NCBI GenBank assembly: GCA_903855995.1
Contig: CAIOAN010000012.1
Span: forward strand, 124,001 to 188,000
Reading direction: 5' to 3'
Origin: an uncultured Opitutia bacterium
Lineage (GTDB): Bacteria; Verrucomicrobiota; Verrucomicrobiia; Opitutales; UBA953
Length of the DNA stretch: 64,000 nucleotides
The notes under the pieces are model-generated. The model was given only the letters and a program-made list of their open reading frames with translations, was not told where the DNA came from and made no database searches. Positions 6,293 to 35,992 of the stretch are shown here, piece by piece. Both the position numbers and the translations under genes were made by a program. The number at the start of each line of letters is the position of its first letter. Position 1 is the stretch's first letter.

Positions 6293-6928
6293 TCAGCGGT
6301 GCGGGCGGTTGCCTTCCCCGGCAGGTACGGGCGCAAGCAGCGGGTTATTAAAAATATAGCGATCTATGACCGCCTTCGGCTTAGCGAAGACATCGCGCAC
6401 CGTCGCCTGATAGGCGCGATACCCGGTGCCGAAACCAGAGGGATAGGCCGAGGCGCTCAACCCTTCGTGCTCCGCCAGCCACAGCGCCCGGACGCAATGC
6501 CAGCCCTGGGATACGAAGACGATGTGCTCTTTCGGATAATACGCTTTCGCGCGCAGCACCGAATCCAACGTGCGCCAGCCATAAGGATCTTCCACGATGG
6601 GGCACGTCACGCCCGCCGCCCGCAGTTGGTCAGCCATGGTGATCGCGTGCGCCTCGGTCCCCGAGCTGATGACAAATTTGATGCGGCCGGATTTGCACAG
6701 CTGTGCGGCGGACTCGATGCGCGGCCGAAACGTCCCGGTCTCTTCATGTGTCCCGGCGACGAACTCATCCGTACCCAATAAGAGCAGCACGGAGCCGGCC
6801 GGAACCTCCGCCGGCGAGGTCGCCAAACGACCCCAGCCCGCAGACCAGACCCAGGCATTGGAACCCACCAAGAAGGCCGCCAAGAACACGGCCAGAAGCT
6901 GGAGTCCTTTTTTGATCCACTGCAACAT
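6293..6928 (-). CDS. SanA/YdcF-like DUF218 membrane-anchored protein
   Basis: 211 residues. An N-terminal membrane anchor (about residues 9-28) is followed by a DUF218-type domain: VLLLLGTDEFV, RIESAAQLCKSGRIKFVISSG, a VEDPYGWRTLDSVLRAK block and VFVSQGWHCVRALWLAEHEG. E. coli SanA is linked to envelope barrier function (vancomycin exclusion), and related ElyC/YdcF proteins to cell-envelope carbon metabolism; the exact role here is unknown. It is convergent with dprA and divergent from the sigma-54 regulator. Confidence 0.82.
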   Translation of the reverse strand: MLQWIKKGLQLLAVFLAAFLVGSNAWVWSAGWGRLATSPAEVPAGSVLLLLGTDEFVAGTHEETGTFRPRIESAAQLCKSGRIKFVISSGTEAHAITMADQLRAAGVTCPIVEDPYGWRTLDSVLRAKAYYPKEHIVFVSQGWHCVRALWLAEHEGLSASAYPSGFGTGYRAYQATVRDVFAKPKAVIDRYIFNNPLLAPVPAGEGNRPHR

Positions 6929-7051
6929 GGCCGAAGAATTGAGCCAGTAAGCCCAAAAGCAAGGGGGGACGGGATAGAGGTATGCTTAAATTTAGGCACA
7001 TCATGATTGAGTTAAGGTCGAAAGAGGACATATTGGCGGGGTCCCTCCCTC

Positions 7052-7067
7052 TGGCACGGATTCTGCC
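7052..7067 (+). promoter_or_regulatory. Sigma-54 (RpoN) -24/-12 promoter of the response-regulator gene
   Basis: The sequence TGGCACGGATTCTGCC matches the sigma-54 consensus TGGCACG-N4-TTGCA at nearly every conserved base, with the diagnostic GG and GC exactly 10 bases apart. A start site about 12 bases past the GC would fall near 7078, only about 4 bases before the ATG at 7082, so the message would be almost leaderless. No Shine-Dalgarno sequence is visible. The gene it drives encodes a sigma-54 activator, which suggests autoregulation. Confidence 0.82.
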
Positions 7068-7081
7068 TACTTTTACTCAAT

Positions 7082-8584
7082 ATGAGTGCCAATTCTACCG
7101 CCGCGATCGCCAAAGTTCTGGTCATCGATGATGACAAGGATCTGCGGTACTCCCTCCGTCGCGCCCTCGCCGGCCTGGGCCACACCGTCATCGAGGCCGA
7201 CAGCGGCGAGACGGGAGTCGTGGCCGCCAAGCGCGAGCAGCCCGATGTCATTCTCCTCGATAACCGCATGGGCGGAATGACGGGCATTGAAACCCTCCAG
7301 ATGCTCCGCGGCGCCCAGCCGCAGGCTATGGTGATTCTGATGACTGCCTTTGGCACGACGCAGACCGCCATCGAGGCGATGAAGTTTGGGGCCTACGATT
7401 ATGTCATGAAGCCGTTTGATCAGGCCAAGCTGATCACCCTCGTCGACAAGGCGCTCTCCGCCCGTCGCGACCTGGCCAACGCCGTCAAGTCCACGCGCAC
7501 CCTCGTCAATCCGGCGGACTACAAAGAAGGCATCGTCGGCAGTTCCGAGCCGATGCAGGAAGTGCTCAAGTCGATCGGCCAGGTCGCCGCGAGCGATGCG
7601 ACGGTGCTGATCACCGGTGAAAGCGGCACAGGCAAGGAACTCGTCGCCCGCTGCATCCACCAGCACTCGTTGCGTGCGAAGGGCCCGTTCCTCGCCGTCA
7701 ACTGCGCGGCCATTCCGGAAAATCTCATCGAATCCGAACTCTTCGGCCACGAGAAAGGCGCCTTCACCGGCGCGACGAACCAGAAGCCCGGCAAGTTCGA
7801 GCTCTGCGACGGCGGCACGATCTTCCTCGATGAAATCGGCGATATGTCGCTACCCACGCAGACGAAAGTCCTGCGCGCCATCCAGGAAGGCGAAATCCAG
7901 CGCGTCGGGGGCACGACCACGCTGAAAGTCAGCGTACGCTTGGTCGCAGCGACCAACAAAGACCTCGAAGCGATGGTGGTCACCCGCCAGTTCCGCGAGG
8001 ATCTCTATTACCGACTCAACGTCTTCCGCATCCGCCTACCCGCCCTCCGCCACCGCAAGAGCGATGTGCCGCTGCTCGTCGACTACATGCTGCAGCGCCA
8101 GGCCGCGGCGAAGAAGATCCGCCCGAAGCGTCTCTCAAACGAAGCACTCGACGCCCTGCTCGCCTACGATTGGCCGGGCAACGTCCGCGAACTCGAGAAT
8201 GTCGTGCAGCGCGCCAACGTCCTCGCGAAAGGAGAGACCATCCTACCCAAGGATCTGCCGCAGGACGTCCTCACGCCGCGCAAATCGGCGACGACCCCCA
8301 TGGCTGCTCCAGTCGCCGTCAGCGCCGCCCCCATCACTGCTCCGGCGGAAATCATCTCCGCTGGCGCCGGCTTGGCGCCCGCCTACGATTCGATCTACCG
8401 GCAGTGCCGCGCGGGTGACGGTAAAGCGATCCTCAGCATCATCGAAATCGAGATGATTCGCCGGGCGATGGAGGAGACGCGCGGCAACCAGCTGCGCTCC
8501 GCCATGATCCTGGGCATCAATCGCTCGACGCTGAAAAAGCGGCTGCTCGAGATGCGTGAAGCGGGCATCAAAGTTTTTAGCTGA
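7082..8584 (+). CDS. Sigma-54-dependent response regulator (NtrC/AtoC class)
   Basis: 500 residues with the full three-domain layout. The receiver domain (about residues 11-125) has acidic D16-D18, phospho-acceptor Asp60 ([10 protein letters not shown]) and the conserved Lys in YVMKPFD. The AAA+ domain (about 150-385) has Walker A GESGTGKE, the sigma-54-contacting GAFTGA loop, Walker [13 protein letters not shown] and the [13 protein letters not shown] motif. A low-complexity linker leads to a Fis-type helix-turn-helix ([21 protein letters not shown]). No sensor kinase gene is adjacent, so its input signal is unknown. The ATG at 7082 is the only start that keeps the whole receiver domain. Confidence 0.95.
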
Positions 8585-8683
8585 GGCAGGCGGGGCCACA
8601 GTCCCTGTCGTTCCGGCCCTAAAGCCGGCCCATGAGCAATTAACCTTTGCCACCGGCCACCCGTCGTCTTCGATGGCTAGCGT

Positions 8684-9334
8684 ATGAGCACCCCCTCACC
8701 CCTCCGCACCATCCTGCTGGCCGCCGGCGCACTCCTCCTGAGTGCCACCGCCTTCGCCGGCGAAACCATCAAGCTGTTCGACGGCAAGTCCCTCGACGGC
8801 TGGAAAGCCACGACCACCGCCCCCGAAGGTACCTACAAGGTCGTTGACGGGATTCTCCAGGTCCGTGGCGGCAAGGCCGACCACCTCTTCTACGTCGGCG
8901 CCGACGGTAAGGCGACCTTCACGAACTTCGACTTCAAGGCGAAGGTGAAGACCTACGAAAAGGCTAATTCTGGAATCTACTTCCACGCACAGTATCAGGA
9001 AAAAAGCTGGCCGAAGCTCGGCTTCGAATGCCAGGTCAACGCGACGCACACCGACAAGAAAAAGACCGGCGGCCTCTACGCTGTCCGCGACGTCATGGAT
9101 ATTCCCGCGGCTCCCGACAACGTCTGGTTTGAATACCACATCCGCGTCGAAGGTAAGCACATCCAGATCTGGATCGACGGCAAGCAGACCGTCGACTTCA
9201 CCCAGCCCGAAGATTGGGTCCCACCGAAGGGCATGGAAGGCCGCAGAATCGGCTCGGGCACGTTCGCTCTCCAGGCCCACGACCCGGGCTGCAAGGTCGA
9301 CTACAAGGACATCGTCGTCGAGCGCCTGCCCTGA
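8684..9334 (+). CDS. Exported DUF1080 (3-keto-disaccharide hydrolase-like) protein
   Basis: 216 residues. An N-terminal signal peptide (hydrophobic core about residues 8-20, cleavage after TAFA) is followed by one DUF1080 concanavalin-like domain: IKLFDGKSLDGWKA, SGIYFHAQYQEKSWPKLGFECQVN, KKTGGLYAVRDV, WFEYHIRVEGKHIQIWIDGK and a closing GSGTFALQAHDPGCKVDYKDI. Family members cleave or bind 3-keto-glycosides made by Gfo/Idh/MocA oxidoreductases; one such enzyme and a second DUF1080 protein occur further along this window. It is convergent with the downstream gene (10 bp gap). Confidence 0.88.
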   Translation: MSTPSPLRTILLAAGALLLSATAFAGETIKLFDGKSLDGWKATTTAPEGTYKVVDGILQVRGGKADHLFYVGADGKATFTNFDFKAKVKTYEKANSGIYFHAQYQEKSWPKLGFECQVNATHTDKKKTGGLYAVRDVMDIPAAPDNVWFEYHIRVEGKHIQIWIDGKQTVDFTQPEDWVPPKGMEGRRIGSGTFALQAHDPGCKVDYKDIVVERLP

Positions 9335-21014: not shown

Positions 21015-21110
21015 GGTCGCTCGACACCCCCGCGATGTGAATGATTTCCCCCTCGGGTTCGCCTACCGACGCTTGCCACGGCCCGAGTTTATGGCAACTT
21101 GACTGCTCCC

Positions 21111-21719
21111 ATGCGTAACGACGACGAAGACGAGGACGAGAAGACCCCGGCCGCCCCCAAGGACGGCGGACCGAGCTCCATGCTCATCCAGAAGAAATTC
21201 CTCGAACAGCGGAAGATCTTCCTCTGGGGCGCCGTGGAGGATGCCTCCGCCCGTGATATCGTCGAAAAGCTCCTCTACCTCGACGGTATCGACCCAGGTA
21301 AGGAAATCACCTTTTACATCAACACCCCGGGCGGTTCGATTACCTCCGGCATGGCCGTCTACGACACCATCCGCATGATTTCCTCGCCGGTGAAGGTCGT
21401 CGTAACCGGCATGGCCGCCTCGATGGGCTCCATCCTCCTCCAGGCACCCAAGGAAAAGGGTAACCGCCTCCTCTTCCCCCACTCCCGCGTGATGATCCAC
21501 CAGCCGCTCATCATGGGCCGCATCCAAGCCACCGCCGTGGATATCCATATTCAGGCCCAAGAAATGGAACGCCTGCGCTCCGAGCTGAACGAGATTCTCG
21601 CCAAGGCCTCGAAGCAGAAAATCGAAAAGGTCACCAAGGACACCGATCGCGACTTCTACATGAACGCCGAGGAGGCCATCGAGTATGGCCTCGCCGACGC
21701 GATCGTGAAGAAGCTCTGA
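21111..21719 (+). CDS. clpP: ATP-dependent Clp protease proteolytic subunit
   Basis: 202 residues from the first ATG; an in-frame TTG at 21099 would add four residues. A charged N-terminus (NDDEDEDEKT) precedes the ClpP core with catalytic Ser104 (GMAASMGS), His130 (VMIHQPL) and Asp181 (TDRDFYM), plus the oligomerisation stretch NTPGGSITSGMAVYDT. It forms the cytoplasmic degradation chamber used with ClpX/ClpA-type unfoldases; neither is adjacent. It is followed 15 bases later by a rhomboid gene. Confidence 0.95.
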   Translation: MRNDDEDEDEKTPAAPKDGGPSSMLIQKKFLEQRKIFLWGAVEDASARDIVEKLLYLDGIDPGKEITFYINTPGGSITSGMAVYDTIRMISSPVKVVVTGMAASMGSILLQAPKEKGNRLLFPHSRVMIHQPLIMGRIQATAVDIHIQAQEMERLRSELNEILAKASKQKIEKVTKDTDRDFYMNAEEAIEYGLADAIVKKL

Positions 21720-21734
21720 GCGGGCGCCACACGC

Positions 21735-22625
21735 ATGGGCATCGGCGACCGGGCCTATATGCGGAATCGGGGCCCTTACCGGGAGCCCCTTTCCGCTACC
21801 GCTTGGACCATCGCCGTCCTCGTCGCCGTTTTCATCGTCAACCTGATCCAGGAGTCCGCCGGCGCGGACCTGCTGAGCTGGGCGATCCTCAACGAAAGCC
21901 AGCCTCGCCTCTGGCAGTGGCTGACGCACGGCCTGCTCCATGAAGGCTTCTGGCACCTCCTGGGCAACTGCCTCGTACTCTGGTGGACGGGCGCCATCGT
22001 CGAACAGGACCACGGCCGCCGGGTTTATTTTCAGGTACTCATCGCCGGCACGCTAAGCGGCGCGCTGGTCTGGTATCTCACGGGCGTCGGCGGCGCGCAT
22101 GACGGCTCGATCATCGGCGTCTCGGCCGGAGTCTACGCCCTGATGCTGGTTGCGCTGATGGACAAGTTGGAACACCAGATCACCCTGCTGCTGTTCTTTT
22201 TCCTGCCGGTCACGCTCAAGGTCCGCTGGATGCTTTCGCTCACGGCTCTCTTCACCCTGCTCGGCTGGATCTTCGCCGAACTGCCTAGCCGCCACGCCTG
22301 GACAAAGTGGCATGCGGCCTGGCATGATAACATCGCCCACTCCGGACACCTCGGCGGTTTGATTCTAGGATTTGTCGCTTGGCACTATCTCCATCGGACA
22401 AATCAGGGTCCGAGCTACGCTCAGGTCCAGATGCCCACCTCCGAAGCACCCAGCCCGGCCATGGAAGCCCCAGCTGAAGACAATACCCCACGCTTAAATC
22501 CGACCCAAGCCGAGGCCCGAGCGGAGCTGGACGGGCTACTGGACAAGATTTCCGCCGGGGGTTTCGGCTCGCTCACTGCCGGCGAGAAACGTAGGTTAGA
22601 GCAACTCAGCGCCCGCTTACGCTGA
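21735..22625 (+). CDS. Rhomboid family intramembrane serine protease
   Basis: 296 residues with about six membrane helices and a soluble C-terminal tail of ~80 residues. The catalytic dyad is visible: Ser in SIIGVSAGVYAL and His in HSGHLGGLILGF. The loop reads HGLLHEGFWHLLGNCLVLWWTG, the usual rhomboid first-loop pattern (WHLLxN). Rhomboids cleave membrane-spanning substrates; no substrate can be named. It lies in a clpP-rhomboid-prc series of proteolysis genes on one strand. Confidence 0.9.
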   Translation: MGIGDRAYMRNRGPYREPLSATAWTIAVLVAVFIVNLIQESAGADLLSWAILNESQPRLWQWLTHGLLHEGFWHLLGNCLVLWWTGAIVEQDHGRRVYFQVLIAGTLSGALVWYLTGVGGAHDGSIIGVSAGVYALMLVALMDKLEHQITLLLFFFLPVTLKVRWMLSLTALFTLLGWIFAELPSRHAWTKWHAAWHDNIAHSGHLGGLILGFVAWHYLHRTNQGPSYAQVQMPTSEAPSPAMEAPAEDNTPRLNPTQAEARAELDGLLDKISAGGFGSLTAGEKRRLEQLSARLR

Positions 22626-22638
22626 GACCCCACCCTTT

Positions 22639-24852
22639 ATGCGATTAAGACTGATTCCGCTGCTGGTCCTCCTGGCTGCGCTGGCTTCCGGCCAGACACC
22701 CGGCTTCACGACCACGCAGTCCATGCAGAACGAGACCCGCGCCACCGCGGCCCTCCTCGAAAAGCTCCACATCAGCCGCAAGGAGATGTCGGCGGTAGAT
22801 ATGAACTCGGTCGTGCGCACGTTCTGCGAGAATCTCGACGGCGCCAAGATGTACTTCACCGCCGAGGAGGTCGATGAGTTCACCGCCCGCTACGGCAAGA
22901 CGCTCGATCTCTACCTGCAGCGCGGCAACCTGACGCCAGCTTTTGAAATCTACGCACTGTTCAAGAAAAAGGTCAACGAACGCACCGTCTCCAACCTGGC
23001 CGCGCTCGACAAACCAATCGACCTGACTCAGCCGGGCACTTTCCCGGTCGAACGCAAGAAGGCCAACTGGCCCGAAAACCAGGAAGCCGCCGACTCCCTC
23101 TGGATCCGCCGCCTCCGCCTCGACATGCTTTCGGAACTCCTTGGCGAAGACCGTCCGAACGGCTCGGCGAAGAACAAGGCCCCGAAAGACCATGGCCTGC
23201 CGGAAATCACCGCCACCAAGACCAAGGAAGCCGTCGAGCGCCTCAAGAAGCGCTACGACAAAAGCCGCACCTACCTGAACTTCGACCAGAATGAAGTAGA
23301 GGAAATCTTCCTCAACTCCTATGCCAGCCAGTACGACCCGCACTCGACCTTCTTCTCCCAGCAGTCGCTTGAAGAATTCGAGATCGCGATGCGCAACTCG
23401 CTCGTCGGCATCGGCGCCACACTCTCCGACGAAGACGGCTTCTGCGTGATCAAGGACATCCTCCCGGGCGGCCCGCTCGACCTCTCCAACCAGGTGAAGC
23501 CGGGCGATAAGATCATCTCCGTCGGCCAGGGGGAGAAAGGTGAGATGGAAGAGATCGTCGGCATGCGCCTCAGCAAAGCCATCGGCCGTATCCGCGGAAA
23601 ACAGAATACCACGGTGCGCCTGCTCGTCGACATGGCCGCCGGCGGCCGCAAGACGGTCGCCCTCAAGCGTGACCAGATCAAACTCGTCGGCCAGATGGCC
23701 TCCGCCAAGGCCTTCGAAGTCCCCAACGGTAACAGCACGCTGCTGCTCGGCGTCATCGACCTGCCAGCCTTCTACGGCAAGAACCCCGACGGCTCCGGCT
23801 CCAGCCCCTCCGCCGACATCGAACAACTCATCGGCAAATTGAAGAAACTCGGGATCAAGGCCCTTATCATGGATCTCCGCAAAAACGGAGGCGGTCTGCT
23901 GAACGAAGCCGTCGACATCGCCGGTCTGTTCATCCCGAAGGGCTCCGTGCTCCAGGTCCGCGATAGCCAAGGCCGCTCTGAAGACTACCGTGACGAAGAC
24001 GAGAAAGTCGCCTGGGATGGCCCCCTCATCGTGTTGACATCAAAACTCTCCGCTTCGGCCTCCGAAATTTTCGCCGGCGCGATGCATGACCACCGTCGCG
24101 CGATCATCGTGGGCGACGTGACGACCCACGGCAAAGGCTCGGTCCAGAACATCATCGAACTCAGCCGCTTCGACAAGAACCTGAAGTCCGCCGTGAAGGT
24201 CACCATCCAAAAGTGGTACGCCCCCAGCGGCTCCTCCATCCAACTGAAGGGAGTCCCGGCGGATATCGTGGTGCCGTCCGTCTACTCCGTGATGCCGGTC
24301 GCCGAAGCTGACCTCGACCGCCCCTTGCCCTGGGATTCCGTCACCCCCACGATGACCAAGCCCGATGAAGGCGATTGGCTCAAGGCGAAGCTCTCCGAGG
24401 GTCTCATCTCGCAGCTCAGCAGCGGCAGCGCCCGCCGCCAGGCCGAACTCCCGGAGTTTCTCACGCTCTCCCGCACAATCGACTGGACCAAGAACCGCCA
24501 GGGCCGGAAAGAAGTCTCCCTCTCGCTCGAACAGCGCCGCACCGAGCGCAAAGACGACCTTGAATTCCGCGACCAGATCCGCCGCGAGCTCGCCGACTAC
24601 GCAAAGAAGGAATACAAGATCGCCGACGTGAAGCTCGACGCCGCAATCGAACAGGAGAAGAAGGAAGGCCCGGACTCCCTCGCGAAATCGAAGAAGGCCA
24701 GCCGCATGCGCGACCCGCTCGAAGATGATGACTGGCCGGAATACGACATTCAGCTGCATGAAGCCGTGCGCATCGCCGCCGACTGGAGTAACCTGCTCTC
24801 CGCCCAGCCCGTGGCCGCGAAAGCCGTAGCGGCACCGAGCACCACGAAGTAA
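22639..24852 (+). CDS. prc: Carboxy-terminal processing protease Prc/Tsp (S41)
   Basis: 737 residues, the long Tsp-type form. A signal peptide is followed by an N-terminal helical region, a PDZ domain (about residues 240-330), the S41 protease core and a DUF3340-like C-terminal segment. Catalytic residues match E. coli Tsp by spacing: Ser473 (SASASEIF), Asp484 (GAMHDHRRA) and Lys499 (HGKGSVQ). It cleaves periplasmic proteins from unstructured C-termini and trims lipoproteins and cell-wall enzymes. It begins 13 bases after the rhomboid stop and ends at an intrinsic terminator. Confidence 0.94.
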   Translation: MRLRLIPLLVLLAALASGQTPGFTTTQSMQNETRATAALLEKLHISRKEMSAVDMNSVVRTFCENLDGAKMYFTAEEVDEFTARYGKTLDLYLQRGNLTPAFEIYALFKKKVNERTVSNLAALDKPIDLTQPGTFPVERKKANWPENQEAADSLWIRRLRLDMLSELLGEDRPNGSAKNKAPKDHGLPEITATKTKEAVERLKKRYDKSRTYLNFDQNEVEEIFLNSYASQYDPHSTFFSQQSLEEFEIAMRNSLVGIGATLSDEDGFCVIKDILPGGPLDLSNQVKPGDKIISVGQGEKGEMEEIVGMRLSKAIGRIRGKQNTTVRLLVDMAAGGRKTVALKRDQIKLVGQMASAKAFEVPNGNSTLLLGVIDLPAFYGKNPDGSGSSPSADIEQLIGKLKKLGIKALIMDLRKNGGGLLNEAVDIAGLFIPKGSVLQVRDSQGRSEDYRDEDEKVAWDGPLIVLTSKLSASASEIFAGAMHDHRRAIIVGDVTTHGKGSVQNIIELSRFDKNLKSAVKVTIQKWYAPSGSSIQLKGVPADIVVPSVYSVMPVAEADLDRPLPWDSVTPTMTKPDEGDWLKAKLSEGLISQLSSGSARRQAELPEFLTLSRTIDWTKNRQGRKEVSLSLEQRRTERKDDLEFRDQIRRELADYAKKEYKIADVKLDAAIEQEKKEGPDSLAKSKKASRMRDPLEDDDWPEYDIQLHEAVRIAADWSNLLSAQPVAAKAVAAPSTTK

Positions 24853-32000: not shown

Positions 32001-32424
32001 GGTAGGGACAGCACCACGTGCTGTCCTAGGTGCAAATGTGCAAACCTGCCTTCGGCCTGTGCAAAGGTGCAAAGTGGATGCAAGTTTCAGGTGGCGGATG
32101 ACTTGGGTAGGGTCGGGACCGCGTCACGACCTAGCTGTATCCGTTTCGGGTGGCGGGTGGCAGCCCCAGGTGGCGGGTGGCGGGATCGGAGGTAGGGGCG
32201 CACCGCGTGCTGCCCTAGTTGCCACGGGTAGGGCGGTGATTGCCATCACCGCCGTTAAAAGCCGCAAGAGCGCAGTCGTCGGGTCTTAGCCAGTCGCCTT
32301 GGAGCCGCATATCCGTCCGCGAACGGACGTGATGGCAATCACGTCCCTACCTCATGATGCCTCTAAACAAAAAGGCCGCCCACAGGCGGCCTTGGCTAGG
32401 GCAGCACGCGGTGCTGCCCCTACC
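32001..32424. repeat. Large palindromic-repeat cluster D filling a 494-bp gene-free gap
   Basis: No gene is visible between 31939 and 32432. Elements: 32001-32029 (GACAGCAC type, identical to 26327-26355); a TGCAAA/TGTGCAAA run (32030-32092); 32106-32134 (GTCGGGAC type); two direct copies of GGTGGCGGGTGGC (about 32148 and 32169); 32191-32218 (a hybrid GGGCGCAC-CGC-GTGCTGCCC); 32227-32254 (GGCGGTGAT-TGCC-ATCACCGCC); 32312-32352 (GTCCGCGAACGGAC fused to GACGTGAT-GGCA-ATCACGTC then CCTACC); and 32396-32424 (GGGCAGCAC-GCG-GTGCTGCCC-CTAC) nine bases past the next gene's stop. Confidence 0.85.
32364..32393 (-). terminator. Intrinsic terminator of the exported ClpP-like gene pair
   Basis: On the minus strand: stem AAGGCCGCC / GGCGGCCTT with loop TGTG, followed by TTTTTGTTTAGA. 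A palindromic repeat (32396-32424) lies between the stop codon and the terminator, and another GGTAGGG repeat begins about 12 bases after the T-tract. Confidence 0.88.
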
Positions 32425-32432
32425 TGTCACGC

Positions 32433-33809
32433 TCACCGCGCGCGATACAGACCCTGGGGATCATAGACCCACCAAGCGTCGAACGGATTGGCCAAGGCTG
32501 GGAGCTCAAAATACGGACGGCCCTTATCGTCAAGGCGCGAGGTGATACCCGAAATCTCGGTGCGCGTCGGCGGCTGCGGCAGTGGCATTGGCATGGTGGC
32601 GGCTGGCGGCTGGGGGACGGGCAACAGGTCGAGTACGGAGGTCTCTTCGATGCGCTCGACGACATTGTCGACCCACTTGAGTTCCTTGGCCTTGTCGCCA
32701 AAAGCCTGCCAGTCGCCGGTGGAATCGTTCGCATACATTTGCTTCACGAACTCCTCGAGCGAAATGCCCATCTTCTTGGCCACCGGGGTGGCGAGGCGGT
32801 CGAACCACTTGGAAGTGAAATCGATCTGCTCCTTCAGCATGGTCATGTTGCCGCGCACGGTATTGGAAGCCTGGTGATGCAGGATGATTGTGTTGGGGTA
32901 GCAGAACGAGCGCTCGGATAGCGTGCAGATCACCGCGGTCATCGAGGCCGCGAAGCCTTTCACGACGACGTAGACCGGGGCTTTCGACGCAGCCATGGTC
33001 TTCTGAATCTGGTAACCGGCGGCGACCGAGCCGCCCGGAGAATTGTCCACCACGATGAAGATCGGGAATTCCGAGGACTGGTTGTTATAGAAGGCGATGC
33101 GCTGGCAGACGTAGTCGGCGAGCTGCTCGGTCACGACGCCGTTGAACGAAATGCGACGGTCGCTGACATAAAGCACGCCGTCGACAAGGGGCTCCTTGAG
33201 CAACTTAGCCTTGGCCTTGCTGGCGACCTTGCGGGCTTCGTCTTCTTTCTGGAAGCGCTGGATCTCGTTGGAGAGACGGGCGACGGTGTTGGCGGCCTCG
33301 AGCTGGAGCTGCTTGGCTTCGGCTTCAAGTTCACGGATCTTGTTCGAACGTTCGGTGAGACGGGCGCCCGAGCGGGCAGCCTCGAGCGCAGCCTGGCGCT
33401 CGAGCTTAGCGCGTTCATCTTCCAGCGCAGCGGCCTCGGCGGCGGCCTTGGCGAGCCGCAGCGAGCGCTCAGTCGTCAGGCGGTAGACTTCGGCGTTGAG
33501 CGGGGCAAGTTCTTCGGTGCGCTTGGCCTCGGCAAGCGCGAGCTCGGCGTCGATGCGGGCCTTCTCGCCGCGCATGCGGTCCACTTCCTTGAGCGAGGCC
33601 TTCTGCTCGGGGGTGAGCTCATCGCGCTGAATCGGCGCGCCGGGAGGCACGGTGGTCGGCTGAGCTGGGACCGTGGGAATAGCGGCCGCGGGAGCGAAAC
33701 CGGGGGCGTCGGGCGCGGCCGCGGCGGCGCGTTTCGTCGTCTGCGCCAAGGCCGGCGAGGCGACCAAGACGGCGAGTGCGAAAGCGCGAAGGAAAGAGCG
33801 AGAGTGCAT
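32433..33809 (-). CDS. Exported coiled-coil ClpP-like serine protease (copy 1)
   Basis: 458 residues. A signal peptide (about residues 1-22, ending ALA-Q) is followed by a Pro/Ala linker, a heptad-like coiled coil (about 66-200) and a ClpP-fold domain (about 205-395). The ClpP triad is complete: Ser289 (GFAASMTA), His312 (LHHQAS) and Asp366 (TGDWQAFG), with the SPGGSV glycine strip. The C-terminus ends in FDAWWVYDPQGLYRAR, echoed in copy 2. Unlike cytoplasmic ClpP it should act outside the cytoplasm, where no Clp unfoldase exists. It lies 17 bases after copy 2 on the same strand. Substrate unknown; SppA-like or stomatin-operon proteases are alternative comparisons. Confidence 0.85.
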   Translation of the reverse strand: MHSRSFLRAFALAVLVASPALAQTTKRAAAAAPDAPGFAPAAAIPTVPAQPTTVPPGAPIQRDELTPEQKASLKEVDRMRGEKARIDAELALAEAKRTEELAPLNAEVYRLTTERSLRLAKAAAEAAALEDERAKLERQAALEAARSGARLTERSNKIRELEAEAKQLQLEAANTVARLSNEIQRFQKEDEARKVASKAKAKLLKEPLVDGVLYVSDRRISFNGVVTEQLADYVCQRIAFYNNQSSEFPIFIVVDNSPGGSVAAGYQIQKTMAASKAPVYVVVKGFAASMTAVICTLSERSFCYPNTIILHHQASNTVRGNMTMLKEQIDFTSKWFDRLATPVAKKMGISLEEFVKQMYANDSTGDWQAFGDKAKELKWVDNVVERIEETSVLDLLPVPQPPAATMPMPLPQPPTRTEISGITSRLDDKGRPYFELPALANPFDAWWVYDPQGLYRAR

Positions 33810-33826
33810 AGGTGTTGGTTTAAAAG

Positions 33827-35020
33827 TTAGCGGAGGACGTATTCGACCGTCGGGTCAAAGAGCCACCAGACATCACAAGGGCCGAGCGGCGGGAGCATCA
33901 GGCGAGGGCGGCCATCCTGCGTCTTGCCGGCGTCGACGAAGCCTTCGGGCATGATCTCCGTAGGCTTGGGTTCGCTGCCGGCGTTAAAGAAGGAATCTTC
34001 GGCCATCTGCTCGACGACGTTGGTGACCCAGTGCAGGCGGGCGGCGTCGTCGCCGGTGACCTTCCAGTCGCCAGTGGAGACGGATTTGTACATCTGTGCC
34101 ACGAAATCCTCGACCGTGATGCCGACGCGATCGGCAACTTTTACAAAGATACGCTCAACCCAGATTTTGCTCCACTTGAGCTGCTCCTTGAGCTGCGTCA
34201 CGTTGCCGTTCATACCGTTCGAGGCCTGGTGGTGTAGCACGATCGTCTGCGGGTAGACAAAGGAGCGCTTGGCCATGGTGGTGATGATAGCAGCCATCGA
34301 GGCGGCGTAGCCTTTGACGACGACGAACACCGGCGCCTTCGAGGTCTCCATGGCCTGGAGCATCATGTAGCCTGACATCACAGAGCCGCCGGGCGAGCGG
34401 TCGATGACGATGAAGATCGGGGCTTCGGCATCGAGCGCGTTGTAAAAGGCAATCCGGCTGCAGACGAAGTCGGCGAGTTTGTCGTCGACGCGGCCGTTGA
34501 ACGGGATGCGGCGGTCGGAGATGTGCAGCACACCGTCGATCAACGGATCCTTCGGGTAGGAGAGCTTGGCATGCGAAGCGATGTCGGCGGCCTTCTGCTG
34601 CAGCTTGGCAATCTGCGCGACCGAGGACACCTTGGCGTATTCGACGGAAACCTGAGCGTTGGCGAGGCGGGCTTCGACTTCCAGTTCGGCACGAGCACGA
34701 TCCTTGTCGGCGGAAGCCACGGCGGCCTTGGCATTCGCGAGCGAGGCCTCGATGGCGAGTCGGCCCTTCTCGGCGTCCGCTGGGGCGGCAGCGGCGTCGG
34801 CACGGGCCATGCGCACCATCGACTCGGCCTCGAGCTTACGCATTTCTAAGGTCTGCTGCAATTGCGCGAGGCGACGCTGGGAAGCGGCGAGATCTAGGCG
34901 AGCCCGGATGACTTCCGTGTCCAGTTCGGCCTTGATGGTCTCGGCGGATTTCTTGACGGGCCCCTGCTGAGCCAGGAGGAGCGCACTGAGAAAAAGAGGG
35001 ACAAGGGCCAGGCGCGACAT
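33827..35020 (-). CDS. Exported coiled-coil ClpP-like serine protease (copy 2)
   Basis: 397 residues from the ATG beginning MSRLALVPLFLSALLLAQQ, a signal peptide; the longer open frame upstream overlaps psd and is rejected. A coiled coil (about residues 24-150, rich in Ala/Glu/Arg) leads into a ClpP-like domain (about 157-345) with Ser241 (GYAASMAA), His264 (LHHQAS) and Asp318 (TGDWKVTG). It shares DGVLxxSDRRI, FNG, RIAFYN and PIFIV with copy 1, and the C-terminal CDVWWLFDPTVEY tail. First gene of the pair; divergent from psd. Its ATG follows CACCTACCCC rather than a Shine-Dalgarno. Confidence 0.85.
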   Translation of the reverse strand: MSRLALVPLFLSALLLAQQGPVKKSAETIKAELDTEVIRARLDLAASQRRLAQLQQTLEMRKLEAESMVRMARADAAAAPADAEKGRLAIEASLANAKAAVASADKDRARAELEVEARLANAQVSVEYAKVSSVAQIAKLQQKAADIASHAKLSYPKDPLIDGVLHISDRRIPFNGRVDDKLADFVCSRIAFYNALDAEAPIFIVIDRSPGGSVMSGYMMLQAMETSKAPVFVVVKGYAASMAAIITTMAKRSFVYPQTIVLHHQASNGMNGNVTQLKEQLKWSKIWVERIFVKVADRVGITVEDFVAQMYKSVSTGDWKVTGDDAARLHWVTNVVEQMAEDSFFNAGSEPKPTEIMPEGFVDAGKTQDGRPRLMLPPLGPCDVWWLFDPTVEYVLR

Positions 35021-35086
35021 GGGGTAGGTGACTGTTTTGACAGATAAATGGTTCCCTTGAAGTCCTTTTTTGGTAAATCTACCCAA

Positions 35087-35992
35087 ATGGACGCCGACGC
35101 CCCGATCACCCTGCATAATCGCCATACCGGCGGGACCGAAATCGAGCAGGTCTACGGTGAAGCCTGGTTGCGCCGCATCTACGGCCACCCGCTCGGTAAA
35201 CTGAGTCTCCACGCCGTCGTCAAACGAGGCCTATTCTCCAAGTTATATGGCTGGGCCATGGATCGCCCGAGCAGTGCCCGCCGCATCGAGCCCTTTATCA
35301 AGGCCTTTAGGCTGAATCCGGCCGAATTTGCGGAAGCAGACCTCAGCGCGTATCGCACCTTCAACGATTTCTTCTACCGCAAGCTCAAGCCCTCGACCCG
35401 CCCGATTGACCCGCGGCCCGAGATGGCCGTGCTACCGGCCGACGGACGTCACCTCGGTTTTCAGGACGCTTCCCGCGTCAAAGGCATCTTCGCCAAAGGG
35501 CAGACTTTTGATATCCCCGCACTCGTCGCGGACCGCGCTCTCGGCGAACGCTATCTCCGCGGCACCGTCGTCTGCTCGCGCCTCTGCCCGGTCGACTACC
35601 ACCGCTTCCACTTCCCGGTTGCCGGCGTACCGGGCGAACCCGTGCTGGCAAAGGGTCAGTTATATTCCGTCAACCCGATCGCCCTGCGCCGTCGTGTCGC
35701 CTACCTCTGGCACAACAAACGCCAGCGCGTGACCATCGACGCCGGCGCGTTCGGCCTCGTCACCATGGTGTCCGTCGGCGCCACCAACGTCGGCACTATC
35801 ATCGAAACTTATCAGCCCGGCCGCGCCGTCGCCAAGGGCGACGAGAAAGGCTACTTCCGTTTCGGTGGATCATTTGTCGCCACCCTCTTTGAGCCTGGGC
35901 GGATCAAACTCGAGGCTGACCTTATCCAGGCCGGCGAAACCGCCACCGAACTCTACGCCAAAGTCGGCTCGCCCCTCGGCCGGCTCGCGTAA
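35087..35992 (+). CDS. psd: Phosphatidylserine decarboxylase proenzyme
   Basis: 301 residues from the ATG at 35087; an upstream in-frame ATG at 35048 would add 13 residues. It makes phosphatidylethanolamine at the membrane. The catalytic triad is present: Asp119 (LPADGRHLGF), His172 (DYHRFHFPVAG) and Ser262 in FGGSFVATLFEPG, where self-cleavage between Gly and Ser forms the pyruvoyl group. The motif is GGSF rather than the common LGST; Ser is the residue needed. N-terminal IEQVYGEAWLRRIYG resembles the Chlamydia-type enzyme. No pssA is adjacent. Confidence 0.93.
   Translation: MDADAPITLHNRHTGGTEIEQVYGEAWLRRIYGHPLGKLSLHAVVKRGLFSKLYGWAMDRPSSARRIEPFIKAFRLNPAEFAEADLSAYRTFNDFFYRKLKPSTRPIDPRPEMAVLPADGRHLGFQDASRVKGIFAKGQTFDIPALVADRALGERYLRGTVVCSRLCPVDYHRFHFPVAGVPGEPVLAKGQLYSVNPIALRRRVAYLWHNKRQRVTIDAGAFGLVTMVSVGATNVGTIIETYQPGRAVAKGDEKGYFRFGGSFVATLFEPGRIKLEADLIQAGETATELYAKVGSPLGRLA

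Follow-up and report, generated by a model that had tools for sequence, protein, structure and literature searches.

ClpP is the textbook self-compartmentalizing protease, degrading proteins only together with an ATP-driven unfoldase. If a lineage relocated a ClpP domain to a place outside the cytoplasm and reshaped its docking groove, as apparently happened here, what replaces the unfoldase? We investigated this question in two adjacent genes, P1 and P2, in a 64,000-nt stretch of DNA (the window) from an uncultured Opitutia bacterium (phylum Verrucomicrobiota). All positions are given in window numbering, and the P2–P1 pair lies on the minus strand. Both open reading frames were found where an initial annotation had placed them: P2 (397 aa, 33827–35020) begins with an ATG at 35020 and lies upstream of its paralogue P1 (458 aa, 32433–33809) across a gap of 17 bases, and the two products are 44% identical across 373 aligned positions. 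Translation, Pfam matches, and structural models mark each as a putative exported ClpP-like serine protease. With moderate confidence, we read the pair from sequences and models as an ATP-independent extracytoplasmic ClpP-type peptidase, probably a P1/P2 hetero-oligomer whose helices would act as tether or gate.

By sequence, P1 and P2 are members of the S14 (ClpP) family. PF00574 (cut-off 20.2 bits) matched P1 with 79.7 bits (E = 3.4e-22) and P2 with 74.9 bits (E = 9.4e-21), placing the domain at residues 216–384 of P1 (32658–33164) and, when the Pfam match (168–310) was combined with the model strands (164 to 341), at residues ~164–341 of P2 (33998–34531). We assigned the proteins to S14 rather than to S49, NfeD, or SDH because this score is far above its cut-off, whereas the other models stay below theirs: for P1 and P2, respectively, NfeD1b_N reached 18.0 and 20.9 bits (cut-off 40), SDH_protease 14.6 and 15.3 bits, and the best SppA model (TIGR00706) 21.3 and 21.1 bits (cut-off 155.45). 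Models of ClpP proper were not reached either, with 54.8 and 54.0 bits for the NCBIfam ClpP equivalog TIGR00493 (cut-off 308.6) and 74.1 and 68.2 bits for NF009205, the best ClpP subfamily model (cut-off 228). The AlphaFold2 models (mean predicted local distance difference test 67 for P1 and 71 for P2; predicted template modelling score 0.44 and 0.50) bear out the ClpP fold that had been annotated for both: the P1 model matched a solved ClpP (Staphylococcus aureus 4emm) with a Z of 21.3 and a root-mean-square deviation of 2.7 over 160 residues, and the P2 model matched solved ClpP with 20.8 and 4.1, respectively, over 159 residues. ClpP chains alone made up the 50 matches listed for each model, in searches that barely probed the helices and the tail. 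When solved structures were searched by sequence, the best 60 of 102 and 103 matches were all Clp peptidase or protease proteolytic subunits, some of them mitochondrial.

The catalytic triads are Ser289 (32943–32945), His312 (32874–32876), and Asp366 (32712–32714) in P1 and Ser241 (34298–34300), His264 (34229–34231), and Asp318 (34067–34069) in P2, exactly the residues initially named. The corresponding columns are invariant in the alignments of 30 and 26 rows and match S97, H122, and D171 of Escherichia coli ClpP. For residue comparisons across the protein family, 58 members were aligned with 33 canonical ClpPs (30 from the class, two encoded by the window's genome, and that of E. coli K-12). 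Far from being disrupted throughout the family, a complete Ser-His-Asp triad is kept by 56 of the 58 members, the exceptions reading SHN (Asp to Asn) and GSE (Gly-Ser-Glu). The Gly-Gly of the oxyanion region is intact in all 58, and Trp follows the catalytic Asp in all of them. P1 and P2 are also under purifying selection and look like working genes: the ratio of nonsynonymous (dN) to synonymous (dS) substitution rates was 0.05–0.34 over whole genes in 10 comparisons (five relatives each for P1 and P2), and dN was lower than dS both in the helix and in the core.

In both proteins, a signal-peptide-like N-terminus leads into a long helix; the ClpP domain comes next, and a linker connects it to an aromatic tail that is conserved. 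Signal peptides were judged by a crude self-made rule, which both proteins passed, in line with the initial annotation; they are predicted at residues 1–22 of P1 (33744–33809), where ALA precedes a Q23 that is invariant in the 30-row alignment, and at residues 1–17 of P2 (34970–35020), where LLA precedes a Q18 that is invariant in the 26-row alignment. Such N-termini start with ATG in both window genes and their near relatives (GTG in 1 of 55 listed starts), and inspection by eye revealed no predicted membrane segment in P1 or P2 besides the signal peptide. From these features, we infer that both proteins are exported. A lipobox pattern had five hits among the 58 members, of which three were judged convincing; these fall in one gene per pair in each of the three genomes sampled from a sister genus, namely the downstream gene, at the P1 position. 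Tethering via that subunit is possible.

The initial annotation also described a long coiled coil, of which the long helix stands and the coiled coil is less certain. AlphaFold2 predicted a single 132-residue helix in P1 (residues 67–198, 33216–33611), which is a probable coiled coil, and two helices in P2 (residues 26–78 and 84–148, 34577–34945), for which a coiled coil is likely. Across the family, the roughly 115 residues preceding the core include, as a median, two residues that are Pro or Gly, and it is safe to call this N-terminal region a long helix. That it forms a coiled coil is likely but not proven, with moderate support overall and a weak signal in P1. A windowed heptad score for P2 exceeded all 100 shuffles (p = 0.00), and 27 of the 58 members passed this test at p ≤ 0.05, compared with about three expected if members were independent, which, being related, they are not. 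A single-frequency heptad test was passed by 7 of the 58, and a test for hendecads (11-residue repeats) by none of the 58.

The shared C-terminal WW(V/L)(Y/F)DP motif was recovered as WWVYDP in the P1 tail (PYFELPALANPFDAWWVYDPQGLYRAR, 32436–32516) and WWLFDP in the P2 tail (GRPRLMLPPLGPCDVWWLFDPTVEYVLR, 33830–33913). A permissive tail pattern, composed after the sequences had been inspected, matched 55 of the 58 members; two of the three misses have a related tail, and one has none. Listeria ClpP2 has a long C-terminus that can fill the docking site when ClpX is absent, and ClpPs of Chlamydia and Pseudomonas are described as having a C-terminal lid (PMC9035409, PMC9823225). By analogy with these proteins, the aromatic tail of P1 and P2 may fill the apical docking groove.

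The groove itself has changed. The hydrophobic docking pocket of Chlamydia ClpP2 is described as Ile29, Leu49, Phe63, Phe83, and Tyr91 (PMC9823225), in a numbering that we assumed to be that of E. coli plus one (catalytic Asp 172 vs. 171), which fits the residue types. In E. coli numbering, position 28 is Ile or Val in 32 of the 33 canonical ClpPs and Arg in 52 of the 58 family members (Thr or Asn in the others), and position 48 is Leu in all 33 and Ala, Asn, Asp, His, or Tyr, mostly small or polar, in 54 of the 58. Position 62 changes from Tyr (33/33) to Val, Ile, or Met (58/58; Val in 55), position 82 from Phe, Tyr, or Met (Phe or Tyr in 32/33) to Ala, Gly, Ser, or Thr (58/58), and position 90 from Tyr (31/33) to Val (57/58). 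Lys occupies position 92, which we take to be another docking-pocket residue, in all 58 members. The oligomerization-sensor Arg that links ClpP rings (R184 in E. coli precursor numbering, Arg170 here; PMC9035409) is Arg in all 33 canonical sequences and Gly in all 58 members. The QXT motif, which is described as variable among true ClpPs (PMC9035409), reads NxT in the family (Asn in 57/58, Thr in 56/58). Conversely, the handle helix is retained, with Trp at position 145 and an acidic residue at 137 in all 58. The changes in docking residues, sensor, and QXT motif fit work where Clp ATPases are absent, and the family-wide replacement of several pocket residues gives independent, sequence-derived support to the initial argument that an exported ClpP would find no unfoldase outside the cytoplasm.

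Next, we consider how the family is distributed. At E ≤ 1e-30, matches occurred in 33 of 387 sampled Verrucomicrobiota genomes and 16 of 197 genera, a patchy distribution; this survey scored four candidates per genome and may have overlooked additional copies. A class-level sample that overlaps with it had matches at E ≤ 1e-50 in 34 of 286 genomes (counted by hand). The search for the pair that the initial annotation had proposed showed the genes adjacent in all 7 sampled genomes of the window's taxonomic family. A scan of genome contigs for close relatives, through which cellular genomes beyond the phylum were covered, returned 31 loci, of which one is titled Akkermansia and the others Opitutae, Opitutales, Opitutus, or Verrucomicrobia; the pair is present at 30 of the 31, and the remaining locus lies at a contig end. 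The contig titled Akkermansia muciniphila (L011) carries a pair about 86% identical to that of the window, as in Opitutae contigs, and is probably a mislabelled metagenome-assembled genome. Two contigs of one other such genome (CAMCWL01; L006 and L030) each carry the pair, which suggests that strains were mixed or that a second locus exists. A quick maximum-likelihood tree was built from 65 ClpP-domain rows. It split the 58 family rows from 7 canonical ClpPs with full support (100 in the Shimodaira–Hasegawa-like approximate likelihood ratio test) and, within the window's genus and close kin, set P1-type rows apart from P2-type rows; the sister genus was not placed firmly.

The initial annotation took the duplication to suggest a hetero-oligomer, and the support for this is indirect. 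In the sister genus, the lipobox is on one gene per pair. One tandem pair includes a triad-less (Gly-Ser-Glu) member, the lipoprotein gene, next to a neighbor with an intact triad, as expected if both subunits share one complex. This case is a single instance on a long branch of the tree; the two genes lie at 6422–7822 and 7849–9198 of the minus strand of L071, and the lipoprotein member keeps the helix region and the tail. It is reminiscent of plastid ClpP/ClpR, in which ClpR subunits are described as non-catalytic (PMC6508832), and mixed ClpP1P2 complexes are described in Chlamydia (PMC6773864) and in Mycobacterium and Listeria (PMC9035409). Mixed ClpP complexes resemble the putative association of P1 and P2 in having two paralogues, the plastid ones including non-catalytic members, but they are cytoplasmic or stromal and served by ATPases, whereas P1 and P2 bear predicted signal peptides and replaced docking residues. 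We infer that P1 and P2 would assemble into a mixed ClpP-like oligomer.

In the arrangement that we favor, P1 and P2 would be exported through the inner membrane by Sec, fold in the periplasm, and act there or on the periplasmic face of the inner membrane without a Clp ATPase. P1 would join P2 through the ClpP domain, with the helices projecting from the N-terminal face, where they would stand in for the axial gate as a tether or an entry filter, and the apical groove, free of any ATPase, may be covered by the tail. Substrates would enter passively as unfolded or already clipped envelope polypeptides; since only unfolded chains or peptides could enter without an unfoldase, the simplest role to propose is the removal of envelope proteins that have been damaged or clipped. 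A more elaborate version, which we consider rather doubtful, is an ATP-free envelope Clp system: a mixed chamber in which seven long N-terminal helices per ring would take over from the axial loops and the unfoldase, serving as a gate, as capture arms, or as a tether to the membrane, with the tail lying in the IGF-loop groove and locking an active or a latent state.

Compared with ClpP (MEROPS S14, PF00574; ClpXP/ClpAP), P1 and P2 have the same fold, triad order and spacing, GG and HQ motifs, and handle helix. They add a signal-peptide-like start, an N-terminal helix region of about 120–130 residues, and the aromatic tail, and they differ in docking residues 28, 48, 62, 82, and 90, the sensor Arg, and the QXT Gln. 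Functional ClpP is cytoplasmic, whereas these proteins bear signal-peptide-like N-termini and, in some members, predicted lipoboxes. In short, they are S14 by sequence yet fail several tested features of functional ClpP. The initial remark that no system of this design had been described holds in part. A literature search found no title or abstract on an exported S14 ClpP family, which is weak evidence of absence given that subscription papers and preprints lay outside its scope, but SppA and NfeD do place a ClpP fold outside the cytoplasm. SppA (S49) is a ClpP-fold peptidase that works there without an ATPase through a Ser-Lys dyad, whereas P1 and P2 keep Ser-His-Asp. NfeD/1510-N is a membrane ClpP-class protease outside the cytoplasm with a ClpP-type domain, an extra domain, and coiled-coil SPFH partners; P1 and P2, in contrast, have no NfeD domain among Pfam matches at E ≤ 1 and no predicted membrane segment besides the signal peptide. 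A 2008 survey of 121 Clp proteases found extra domains in only three, all of them NfeD (PMC2605481). With the P1/P2 family, one can test whether a given ClpP feature serves catalysis or ATPase control; if our reading is true, the family would also provide an additional envelope protease, perhaps for protein quality control, in scattered Verrucomicrobiota.

Several observations weigh against this reading. Outside the window's taxonomic family, 24 of 26 genomes carry a single copy (one has a tandem pair and one two dispersed copies), and a hetero-oligomer is dispensable for function there. The changed sensor Arg and QXT Gln mean that the geometry of a ClpP tetradecamer (ClpP14) is not to be assumed, and the two rings may fail to pair. 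Remodelling, not erasure, describes the docking groove, and some other ligand may bind there: position 189, a published pocket residue (PMC6773864), is still Val in 48 of the 58 members, positions 49 and 112 remain aromatic, and positions 60 and 114 turn aromatic in the family. As for export, 53 of the 58 members, including P1 and P2, passed the crude signal-peptide rule, although the starts of 46 distant members were picked by a script favoring hydrophobic N-termini. The windowed heptad score of P1 exceeded 90 of 100 shuffles (p = 0.10), and the stretch after its catalytic His, part of the handle, was modelled with low confidence (block means of 50 and 38). In the tree, a very long branch (2.89 to either side of the root) leads to canonical ClpP and drew a long-branch-join warning, and none of the neighboring genes that we examined points to a substrate.

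Among other explanations, a possible though unlikely one is an envelope peptidase more like SppA or NfeD, that is, a small open oligomer trimming specific membrane peptides, signal peptides, or a partner protein, with the helix as a partner-binding or membrane-proximal stalk and no closed chamber. The family-wide change of the ring–ring sensor Arg and QXT motif would suit such an enzyme, as would the weak likeness to the NfeD1b_N and SppA models, the existence of lipoprotein members, and a same-strand membrane protein gene that, in 13 genomes belonging to two other families, lies directly 5′ of the gene for the protease. Conversely, the PF00574 scores far exceed those of S49-type models, the handle helix is kept with its family-conserved residues (Trp 145, acidic 137), and the best 50 fold matches per search are ClpP chains only. 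We consider it improbable that P1 and P2 are digestive proteases released from the cell to feed on external protein: their signal-peptide-like N-termini, the lack of any other predicted membrane helix, and the lake origin of several near relatives (by record titles) fit this idea, but sister-genus genomes have lipoprotein versions, and a long helix is unusual for digestive enzymes. Slightly less probable still is a non-proteolytic scaffold, in which the ClpP fold would assemble a long-helix envelope structure and catalysis would be secondary or lost; the helix region is almost as long as the enzyme domain, and 2 of the 58 members have altered triads (SHN and GSE), but the triad in the other 56, the oxyanion Gly-Gly in all 58, and purifying selection on the core argue for catalysis. 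Finally, it is very improbable that the pair are cytoplasmic paralogues served by ClpX or ClpC with a misread start posing as a signal peptide, because, although the 2.66-Mb, 97% complete source genome has Clp ATPase-type open reading frames (one AAA_2 frame of ClpX size and two additional long ones), the N-termini are ATG-started in the window genes and near relatives, the docking residues are replaced throughout the family, and two separate canonical ClpPs are already present, one in the window (21099–21719) and the other adjoining the ClpX-size frame.

We also examined partner genes and other origins. The upstream membrane protein was rejected as a general partner: in that search, none of the six genomes of the window's taxonomic family had a match, and of the 62 genomes that carry it, only 22 have the protease (E ≤ 1e-50; counted by hand). 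It is possibly a lineage-specific tether in the 13 genomes where, by coordinates, its gene directly precedes that of the protease (L048, L049, L050, L051, L054, L056, L058–L060, L074–L076, and L079); at L076, one gene intervenes. In an alignment of the 13 members, of which three were scanned against Pfam with only sub-cut-off matches, it has an invariant S-P-x-x-G-C at the N-terminal helix; it is absent from the window's genome and present in 40 genomes lacking the protease. Three genomes have ExbD-, TonB-, and TPR-type genes in the vicinity of the protease, which were set aside, as opposite-strand haem-like genes, recognized by eye, separate them from it; Pfam confirmed TonB_C and TPR in one of the three, and ExbD was identified by eye. 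We likewise set aside a TatC-type gene that lies two places upstream of the protease in three members of a single genus (Pfam supported the assignment in one) and was absent from the other layouts viewed; the gene order in that genus (L049, L058, and L075) is TatC-type, membrane protein, and exported ClpP. A mobile or phage origin is not supported. Plasmid and phage records had no place covering 80% of the query, and the best 20 of 87 plasmid and best 12 of 61 phage matches covered only the ClpP domain at ≤33% identity. Among viral contigs, 30 loci matched, 22–40% identical over the best segment, with matched ranges from residue 158 or later to 390 or earlier.

In the window, a divergent phosphatidylserine decarboxylase gene (35048–35992) lies upstream of P2, and the gene downstream of P1 encodes a product that combines cytochrome c and PA14 domains. 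The genome also has trypsin-like (PF13365) frames and a separate S49-type frame. About 8 kb away from the exported pair, a plus-strand row (21099–24852) consists of the canonical ClpP (21099–21719), a rhomboid-like membrane protein (21735–22625), and a C-terminal-processing-type protease (22639–24852), the last two recognized by eye. Given these trypsin-like, S49-type, C-terminal-processing-type, and rhomboid-like genes, P1/P2 would be one among several envelope proteases. Downstream of P1, a terminator-like stem of nine pairs (seven G-C) followed by a T-rich tail (32372–32393, minus strand) is only suggestive of a possible end of the P2–P1 transcript, as two terminator-like sites were found in the region against a mean of 2.7 in shuffles (no excess). 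The intergenic stretch after P1 (32000–32420) also contains short repeated GC-rich motifs that were spotted by eye, such as palindromes resembling agcaccacgtgctgtcctag and gtgattgccatcac.

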